From: Amycolatopsis australiensis
GTDB taxonomy: Bacteria; Actinomycetota; Actinomycetes; Mycobacteriales; Pseudonocardiaceae
Reading direction: 5' to 3'
DNA length: 64,000 nucleotides
Assembly: GCF_900119165.1 (NCBI RefSeq)
Contig: NZ_FPJG01000006.1
Location: forward strand, 5,022,001-5,086,000
The position numbers and the translations under genes were made by a program. The notes under the pieces are model-generated. The model saw only the letters and a program-made list of their open reading frames with translations. It was not told where the DNA came from and did not search any database. Below, one piece after another: positions 48,133 through 52,971 of this stretch; position 1 is the first letter of the stretch; every line of letters begins with the position of its first letter.

Positions 48133-48987
48133 TCAGTGTGCGGTGACGCGGGTGAGCTTGCCGGCCAGCCGGCCGATCCACGCCTCGACTTCCTCCGGTG
48201 AACGGTCCGGGAGGCCGAAGATCGTCTCGGTCACGCCGAGGGAATCCAGGTGGGCCAGCCGGTCGGGGTCCGGTCGCTCGCCGAGCGCGCAGATCCGTGG
48301 CGCTCCCGGACGTCCTTCGGCCGCCCAGATCTCCTTCAGCAGCGCCACGTGCCCGTCGAGGTCGCTGTCCGCCGGGGTCGTCAGCCAGCCGTCGGCGTGG
48401 CGGGCGATCCAGCGGAACGTCTTCTCCGCCGGGCCCGCGCCCAGCAGCACCGGGATGTGCGGCTGGACCGGCTTCGGCCACGCCCAGCTCGGGCCGAACG
48501 ACACGAACTCCCCGTCGTAGGAAGCCTCTTCCTGAGTCCACAGTGCACTCATCGCCTCGAGGTACTCGCGCAGCACCGTCCGGCGGCGGTGGCCCGGCAC
48601 GCCGTGGTCGGTCAGCTCGTCGACGTTCCAGCCGAACCCCGCGCCGAGCGTCACCCGGCCGCCCGAGAGGTGGTCCAGGCTCGCGATCGTCTTGGCCAGC
48701 GTGATCGGGTCGCTTTCGACCGGCAGCGCCACCGCCGTGGACAGCCGGATCCGCGACGTCACCGCGGCCGCCGTCGCCAGGGCCACCCACGGGTCCAGCG
48801 TCCGGCTGTACCGGTCGTCGGGCAGCGACGCGTCACCGGTGCGCGGGTGCGGCGATACCCGCTTCACCGGGATGTGCGTGTGCTCGGGGACGTAGAACGT
48901 GGCGAACCCCGCGGCTTCCGCGGCGCGCGCCGCGGCCGCCGGGGTGATGCCCCGGTCGCTGGTGAACAGCACGATTCCGTAGTCCAC
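48133..48987 (-). CDS. LLM-class F420-dependent oxidoreductase
   Basis: 284-residue luciferase-like TIM barrel ([51 protein letters not shown]), of the TIGR03619-like group common in actinobacteria. Hydride donor probably F420H2; substrate unknown. The GTG at 48987 lies 14 bp from a KstR-like palindrome, hinting at lipid or steroid regulation. Confidence 0.83.
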
Positions 48988-49014: not shown

Positions 49015-49255
49015 GTTTTCAAGGTCACCTCGTCGTCGCCGTGCGGGGTCGCTCGGCTACGATCCGTCGCCTTGAGGGATGTTCGATCCCGGGCTGACAC
49101 ACTCGGGGAGCCGGCGGGGCGGACCGGCCGGTCGAGGGAGGTGCGGGGTGCGCGCGATGCTCTACTGTGGACGGTCACGGACCGTGTCCCAGAACGTGGA
49201 CACCCGGTGCGGGCGGGATGGCCAGCCGGGGGTGGGTTCCACTATCCTCGTCCAC

Positions 49256-49327
49256 GGGCCGAGAGGCGCTGCAACGGACCGCGGGGTCCGCCACGCTCGA
49301 CCCGTACCACCGGACCAAGGGCGCCTC
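49256..49327 (+). ncRNA. S-adenosylhomocysteine (SAH) riboswitch
   Basis: P1 forms between GGGCCGAG (49256-49263) and CTCGACCC (49296-49303) with one mismatch. P2 is a 6-bp hairpin (49275-49280 with 49285-49290). The conserved core GGCGCTGCAAC (49265-49275) and GCCACGCTCG (49290-49299) resemble the ahcY/SAH motif, with one departure (CCACGC for CCAGGC). A pseudoknot pairs AGGCGC (49264-49269) with GCGCCT (49321-49326). Located in the metH leader, as known for this class. Rest of the gap 48988-49255: nothing besides the KstR-like box. Confidence 0.78.
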
Positions 49328-49345
49328 CCGAGCGAGGGAGGGCGC
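49321..49345 (+). promoter_or_regulatory. Expression platform: RBS-masking hairpin of metH
   Basis: The 3' pseudoknot strand can instead pair with the metH Shine-Dalgarno: 49321-49329 with 49336-49345 (one bulged G), burying GGGAGGG (49336-49342). SAH binding should free the site, giving a translational ON switch. Confidence 0.7.
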
Positions 49346-49347
49346 TG

Positions 49348-52952
<3,605 letters not shown>

Positions 52953-52971
<19 letters not shown>

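Follow-up and report, generated by a model that had tools for sequence, protein, structure and literature searches.

Whether the leader of a methionine synthase gene (metH) in Amycolatopsis australiensis senses SAH, and what such sensing would do to the gene, is the question raised by the DNA analyzed here. The window, meaning the whole stretch of 64,000 nt (GCF_900119165.1, NZ_FPJG01000006.1, positions 5,022,001 to 5,086,000, forward strand), lies on contig C6 of an Amycolatopsis genome of 9.3 Mb. An earlier note had proposed that this leader folds as an SAH riboswitch whose pseudoknot competes with a hairpin over the ribosome-binding site (RBS). Judged from sequence comparison, the leader is probably an SAH-sensing riboswitch, an actinomycete variant of the SAH class that would act as a translational on-switch.

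Architecture of the metH leader

The gene behind the leader is indeed metH: the frame is complete, carries all five MetH domains of Pfam (S-methyl_trans, Pterin_bind, B12-binding_2, B12-binding, and Met_synt_B12), and is 93% identical over its best segment to metH of Amycolatopsis sp. A133. Between 49255 and 49327, the leader folds into the three parts of an SAH riboswitch, P1, P2, and the pseudoknot; every element sits at the place claimed for it, and the 3' strand of the pseudoknot matches exactly. Aptamer position numbers were carried onto window bases through a reference sequence, which we assume to be correct. The features are as follows.

48133-48987, minus strand: luciferase-like monooxygenase gene, divergent from metH on the other side of the leader
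49243-49248, plus strand: -10 box TATCCT; TANNNT lies 17-20 nt before the P1 GAG in 63 of 63 metH leaders of the genus
49255-49263, plus strand: P1 5' strand, pairing with 49296-49304 with one C.A mismatch
49264-49269, plus strand: pseudoknot 5' strand (positions 8-13, AGGCGC), complementary to 49321-49326
49271-49272, plus strand: pocket bases G15 and C16, SAH contacts according to PMC7057144
49275-49290, plus strand: P2 hairpin, 49275-49280 with 49285-49290
49293-49294, plus strand: pocket base A29 (49293) and swapped base C30 (49294); C30 in 126 of 126 Amycolatopsis copies found by RF01057
49296-49304, plus strand: P1 3' strand, pairing with 49255-49263; P1 columns 90.2% paired
49319, plus strand: swapped base G46, putative partner of C30
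49321-49326, plus strand: pseudoknot 3' strand (positions 48-53, GCGCCT), complementary to 49264-49269
49321-49329, plus strand: 5' arm of the competing hairpin (anti-ribosome-binding-site); hairpin 49321-49345, -16.7 kcal/mol
49336-49345, plus strand: 3' arm of the competing hairpin, with one bulged G; includes the RBS GGGAGGG (49336-49342)
49348-52971, plus strand: metH, B12-dependent methionine synthase of 1207 aa with five Pfam domains; ATG at 49348

Because the -10 box stands at a fixed distance upstream in all 63 metH leaders, the RNA is predicted to start near 49254-49256, at the first base of P1. The pocket bases G15, C16, and A29 are all kept in the window copy (49271, 49272, and 49293). 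A motif descriptor, written after the motif had been seen, matched once in the window and in none of 2000 dinucleotide shuffles of the leader. The stability of the whole-leader fold is ordinary, with a z of -0.73 and 48 of 200 shuffles folding equally well.

Assignment to the SAH class

The SAH riboswitch model RF01057 was the best of three relaxed Rfam matches in the leader (E up to 10); it aligned from one end of the model to the other and scored 31.0 bits, with an E of 3e-4 for the 271 bases searched. The covariance search that the earlier note had suggested as a check thus returned the expected family, but below its curated gathering score of 37 bits, which is why a gathering-threshold Rfam scan of the window gave no match. 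We retain the class assignment on this best match, despite the score under the cut-off. We dismissed the other two matches as chance, one being a viral frameshift element (E 5.5) and the other leuA-Halobacteria (E 4); neither the SAM/SAH riboswitch RF01727 nor the SAM-IV riboswitch RF00634 was among the three.

The public model can overlook copies of this form. A whole-genome RF01057 search at E <= 0.001 reported only C6:4970960-4971036 on the minus strand (35.8 bits), a second copy that lies upstream of ahcY, and skipped that of the window. Model R1, built from 23 copies of relatives with the window copy among them, gives the latter 77.7 bits (E 5.6e-15), the runner-up in the window reaching 17 bits (E 0.074). 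Across the genus, RF01057 matched in 72 of 80 genomes and passed the gathering score in 46, as did four of the nine named actinomycete metH leaders that carry the element; the window copy falls short of it. Judged by anatomy, P1, P2, the pseudoknot, and the three pocket bases are present in the window copy, and the reference core letters G30 and C46 are absent, the pair being retained with its partners exchanged. An SAH-recycling gene follows in both cases, metH here and ahcY at the second copy.

Covariation support for the fold

The fold was assessed in 42 sequences: 20 are actinomycete, 21 belong to the class that includes Nitrosomonas, and the remaining one comes from a small genome in the same phylum as the window. 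Over 20 pairs (P1, P2, the pseudoknot, and 30-46), 94.9% of cells are paired, against 78.1% in shuffles and at most 45.5% in slid versions. Both sides have changed in 14 of the 20 pairs, and the covariation score of 0.493 was matched by none of 500 shuffles. The pseudoknot, left unmodeled by the RF01057 match line, is 99.6% paired with both-side changes in three of six pairs (n = 42 sequences). P2 is 97.0% paired, with such changes in all four counted pairs, and P1 has them in six of nine pairs at 90.2% pairing, its outermost pair being poorly kept (15 of 38 cells unpaired). P1 and P2 alone, in 23 actinomycete sequences, are 94.3% paired versus 87.7% in shuffles. The pair 30-46 forms in every one of the 42 sequences, as G-C in 22 and C-G in 20.

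A swapped pair in the ligand pocket

The earlier note had remarked on a single odd base in the core (CCACGC for CCAGGC) and guessed at an actinobacterial variant. The odd base is real, but it is not single: two positions differ, and the C at 49294 and the G at 49319 are compensatory. The guess itself is upheld within the genus, where the pocket pair G30-C46 is replaced by C30-G46 in 126 of 126 Amycolatopsis copies found by RF01057, as in the window; all 29 reference copies, 28 of them from the Nitrosomonas class and one, locus L112, from the window's phylum, have G30 and C46. Since L112 shares the phylum and has the reference form, the swap is not phylum-wide. We infer the 30-46 pairing from the swap, which separates the clades and may be one event. 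Two pseudoknot pairs are exchanged as well, 8-53 from G-C in the reference to A-U in actinomycetes, and 9-52, which is A-U in 24 of the 29 reference copies, to G-C. At pair 13-48, eight distinct actinomycete copies that belong to a different family of the order have U-A, as does a single reference copy. Beside pocket base C16, position 17 differs by gene in Amycolatopsis: all 62 ahcY leaders have G there, and 62 of the 63 metH leaders have A.

The position table holds 175 actinomycete rows (137 distinct sequences), comprising the window, 138 rows retrieved by pattern, six order-level relatives, and 30 family-level R1 loci, some of which repeat Amycolatopsis copies. The pattern for the 138 rows already contains CCACGCTCG; the unbiased part is the set of 126 copies found by RF01057, all of which fit the pattern with C30 and G46. 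The patterns also require G15, C16, and A29, a demand to which no row was lost. Loci L138, L163, and L167, where the aptamer lies off its expected place, were omitted from the table, and of 60 matches in one underlying scan, 30 entered as loci.

PMC7057144 describes a crystal structure in which the adenine of SAH sits between C16 and A29 in a minor-groove cleft, with G15 bonding the adenine and C46 touching the homocysteine tail. By our reasoning, C30-G46 can hold an acceptor in about the same place on the minor-groove side, so a loss of SAH binding is not expected. A more speculative proposal, which we consider unlikely, is an actinomycete pocket subclass in which C30-G46 would read the homocysteine tail from the other side with a selectivity (e.g., against SAM, adenosine, or ATP) unlike that of the proteobacterial form, the pseudoknot strand would have been reshaped to serve both the sensing helix and the anti-ribosome-binding-site, and position 17 would be tuned to each gene.

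One strand, two probable outputs

The hairpin that had been claimed to bury GGGAGGG is present, 49321-49329 pairing with 49336-49345, and it takes up the 3' strand of the pseudoknot. Because both structures use 49321-49326, they are mutually exclusive. In the metH leaders of the genus, the GCGCCU of this strand runs on as CC, and the resulting CCUCC can pair with the GGAGG of the RBS in 63 of 63. An ATG, GTG, or TTG follows GGAGG by 4-8 nt in all 63 and is in frame with the MetH match in 62. Among 28 distinct loops, the next inward pair is always C-G (19) or G-C (9), and the pair after it forms in 16. A U-run (three or more U within 12 nt) after the hairpin was found in none of the 63.

The hairpin extends beyond the genus. 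It reads CCUUCC/GGAAGG in all eight metH leaders taken from a different family of the order and CCUCC/GGAGG in all ten from the order of Actinocorallia, and it is found at 29 of 30 family-level loci (L278 is without the exact motif). Among the 30 copies of the Nitrosomonas class, of which 29 lie upstream of ahcY, the aptamer is never followed by the CCUCC/GGAGG motif.

All 62 ahcY copies of Amycolatopsis have the hairpin, and in 47 of them at least three U follow within 12 nt. The ahcY hairpin of the window genome (-22.9 kcal/mol) is followed by UUU and begins 88 nt upstream of the start of ahcY. In most ahcY copies, the hairpin is thus probably a terminator, and one design appears to serve two outputs, RBS masking at metH and termination at most ahcY copies.

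The switch would work as follows. In the absence of SAH, 49321-49329 would pair with the RBS and metH would go untranslated; as SAH builds up, it would stabilize the pseudoknot, which would capture 49321-49326 and free the RBS. MetH, once made, would convert homocysteine back to methionine. At the ahcY copy, where the same strand lies in the terminator-like hairpin, the SAH signal would also raise the SAH-breakdown enzyme. Given that the shared strand excludes both folds at once, SAH should switch metH and ahcY on, and translational activation by SAH is the most likely direction at metH. The sequences themselves show the anatomy, its conservation, the pair changes, and the partner genes; we infer the ligand, its selectivity over SAM, this direction, and the mechanism by analogy, from the class and the anatomy.

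In energy, the pseudoknot helix (-10.0 kcal/mol) is outweighed by the competing hairpin (-16.7 kcal/mol), so switching would need strong ligand stabilization or kinetic control. An accessibility model in which the pseudoknot strands are blocked, and which omits ligand, pseudoknot geometry, and co-transcriptional folding, raises the opening of the window RBS from 0.14 to 0.27 and thus weakly favors unmasking. With the same model, the GGAGG core becomes more open in 62 of the 63 metH leaders, and in 37 the gain exceeds 0.3. All 62 ahcY copies rise too, 23 of them by more than 0.3, with that of the window genome barely moving, from 0.0001 to 0.0003.

Alternative explanations

Two further points count against the main reading: a base reported to contact SAH is changed, and the window copy lies under the curated Rfam score. 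The same fold might serve another molecule, the swapped pocket pair having shifted recognition to SAM, methylthioadenosine, or adenosine, and position 46, the homocysteine-tail contact according to PMC7057144, does differ from the crystallized form in all actinomycete copies examined. Yet 125 of the 127 Amycolatopsis copies precede metH or ahcY (two are unassigned), as expected for SAH, and the swap, viewed from the minor groove, can by our reasoning leave the acceptor in place; we regard a different ligand as improbable. Still less credence goes to a conserved leader that binds a protein or sets RNA stability alone, with no small ligand, and to this reading we give hardly any weight: the core retains the pocket bases of the crystallized SAH aptamer, and two different outputs use a common strand-exchange design.

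The remaining alternatives accept an SAH riboswitch and differ over its output. That the metH hairpin is itself a terminator, acting by premature termination and not by RBS masking, is suggested by its ahcY equivalent, terminator-like in 47 of 62 copies; at metH, the U-run occurs in 0 of 63 leaders and the 3' arm of the hairpin is the RBS in 63 of 63, which makes a transcriptional switch there quite improbable. A switch that lowers metH expression on binding SAH would have a precedent in the SAM/SAH class, whose pseudoknot hides the RBS when bound (PMC7367207). Here the RBS is not part of the aptamer, and only in the competing fold does it pair with an aptamer strand; an off-switch is very improbable. 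SAH-dependent activation of metH translation remains the likely reading.

Distribution and gene partners

At least one copy occurs in 74 of 80 genus genomes, the 72 with an RF01057 match and two of the remaining eight by the model built here. The genus set holds 127 copies, namely all 126 RF01057 matches, each fetched, and the window; 63 lie upstream of metH, 62 upstream of ahcY, and two (L240 and L241) are unassigned. The two partner genes fit with SAH recycling. Among 20 named loci, RF01057 scores above its cut-off ahead of metH in five, from Planobispora takensis (41.7 bits), Amycolatopsis sp. A133 (41.4), Actinocorallia populi (39.6), Amycolatopsis dendrobii (39.5), and a gammaproteobacterial MAG (60.4).

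Over 80 metH loci, R1 found nine at 67 bits or more, of which seven were in the model: five from Amycolatopsis and one each from Micromonospora, Frankia, Actinocorallia, and Planobispora. A tenth match was weak (L024, 21.1 bits, E 0.078), and R1 found none at L008 and L063, the two other metH loci labeled Actinomycetota or Rubrobacteraceae. In the family of the window genome, R1 matched in 163 of 249 genomes and 23 of 46 genera. In the order of Actinocorallia, it matched in 23 of 101 genomes, the weakest two at 46.8 and 36.4 bits, with ten of the 23 matches examined at locus level. Across the phylum, 11 of 396 genomes matched R1 and six of 396 matched RF01057, one match being false in each case (genome G252 with locus L255, and G371 with L116, both rejected because the locus is without the motif). 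Because only a few candidates in each genome are scored in the family and phylum scans, copies can be missed. In the genomes behind metH loci of other or deep groups, model R2 found no copy (eight of eight).

Several copies depart from this picture. L112 (genome G082, 1.8 Mb) carries a proteobacterial-type aptamer of 57.5 bits upstream of ahcY, and its position 47 is U. This copy points to horizontal transfer, to an older form, or to a misplaced contig. L240 and L241, on different contigs of genome G056, have identical aptamers in which the otherwise kept U14 is A, while a third copy there (L096) is normal; a recent duplication with a pocket-side change is possible, as is an assembly duplicate. 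Variant aptamers lie upstream of a methyltransferase gene at L246:653-1480 (minus strand; Methyltransf_11, 1.9e-19) and of a MOSC-domain gene at L274:803-1483 (minus strand; 6.4e-14), neither of them metH or ahcY, and both aptamers retain the CCUCC/GGAGG hairpin.

At ten of the 62 Amycolatopsis ahcY-type loci (L126, L175, L193, L199, L200, L209, L218, L219, L223, and L230), ahcY starts 944-975 nt past the aptamer, with an opposite-strand frame of 270-320 aa in between. The one such frame scanned, at L175, encodes a SAM-dependent methyltransferase (Methyltransf_25, 1.5e-13). At such loci, SAH-driven read-through would give RNA antisense to a methyltransferase gene on its way to ahcY.

Relation to known riboswitches

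The SAM-IV riboswitch RF00634, which occurs in actinobacteria, is likewise a SAM-cycle riboswitch, and its fold and ligand differ from those of the SAH riboswitch. The proteobacterial type of RF01057 is represented by the crystal structures 3NPN and 3NPQ. The window form has P1, P2, the pseudoknot, and G15, C16, and A29 in common with that type, but carries C30-G46 in place of G30-C46, has pairs 8-53 and 9-52 swapped, and extends its 3' strand into an RBS-pairing CCUCC, a motif that does not follow any of the 30 copies of the Nitrosomonas class. The gene association is also shared: SAH riboswitches are described upstream of ahcY, metF, and, in Comamonadaceae, metH in PMC4239095, and PMC3766115 mentions their presence in Mycobacteriaceae. 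The SAM/SAH riboswitch RF01727 resembles the present element as a small pseudoknot that binds SAH, as the window form presumably does, and differs in its H-type fold, its place upstream of metK, and its action as an off-switch that hides the RBS when bound, according to PMC7367207.

Our literature search returned neither a C30-G46 SAH riboswitch nor one upstream of Amycolatopsis metH; a prior description is possible, the founding papers, reportedly Weinberg 2007, Wang 2008, and Edwards 2010, lying outside the search. As far as searched, an actinomycete form with a C30-G46 pocket pair and a fused anti-ribosome-binding-site strand appears to be new.

The swapped pair amounts to a natural experiment: it alters a base that contacts the ligand, in a riboswitch whose structure is known, and models of the pocket are therefore testable. 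The design is also compact, with a single strand that would serve as sensor, as anti-ribosome-binding-site, and, at ahcY, as terminator arm. Actinomycetes are rich in methyltransferases, and in this group the element would extend SAH sensing to methionine synthase.
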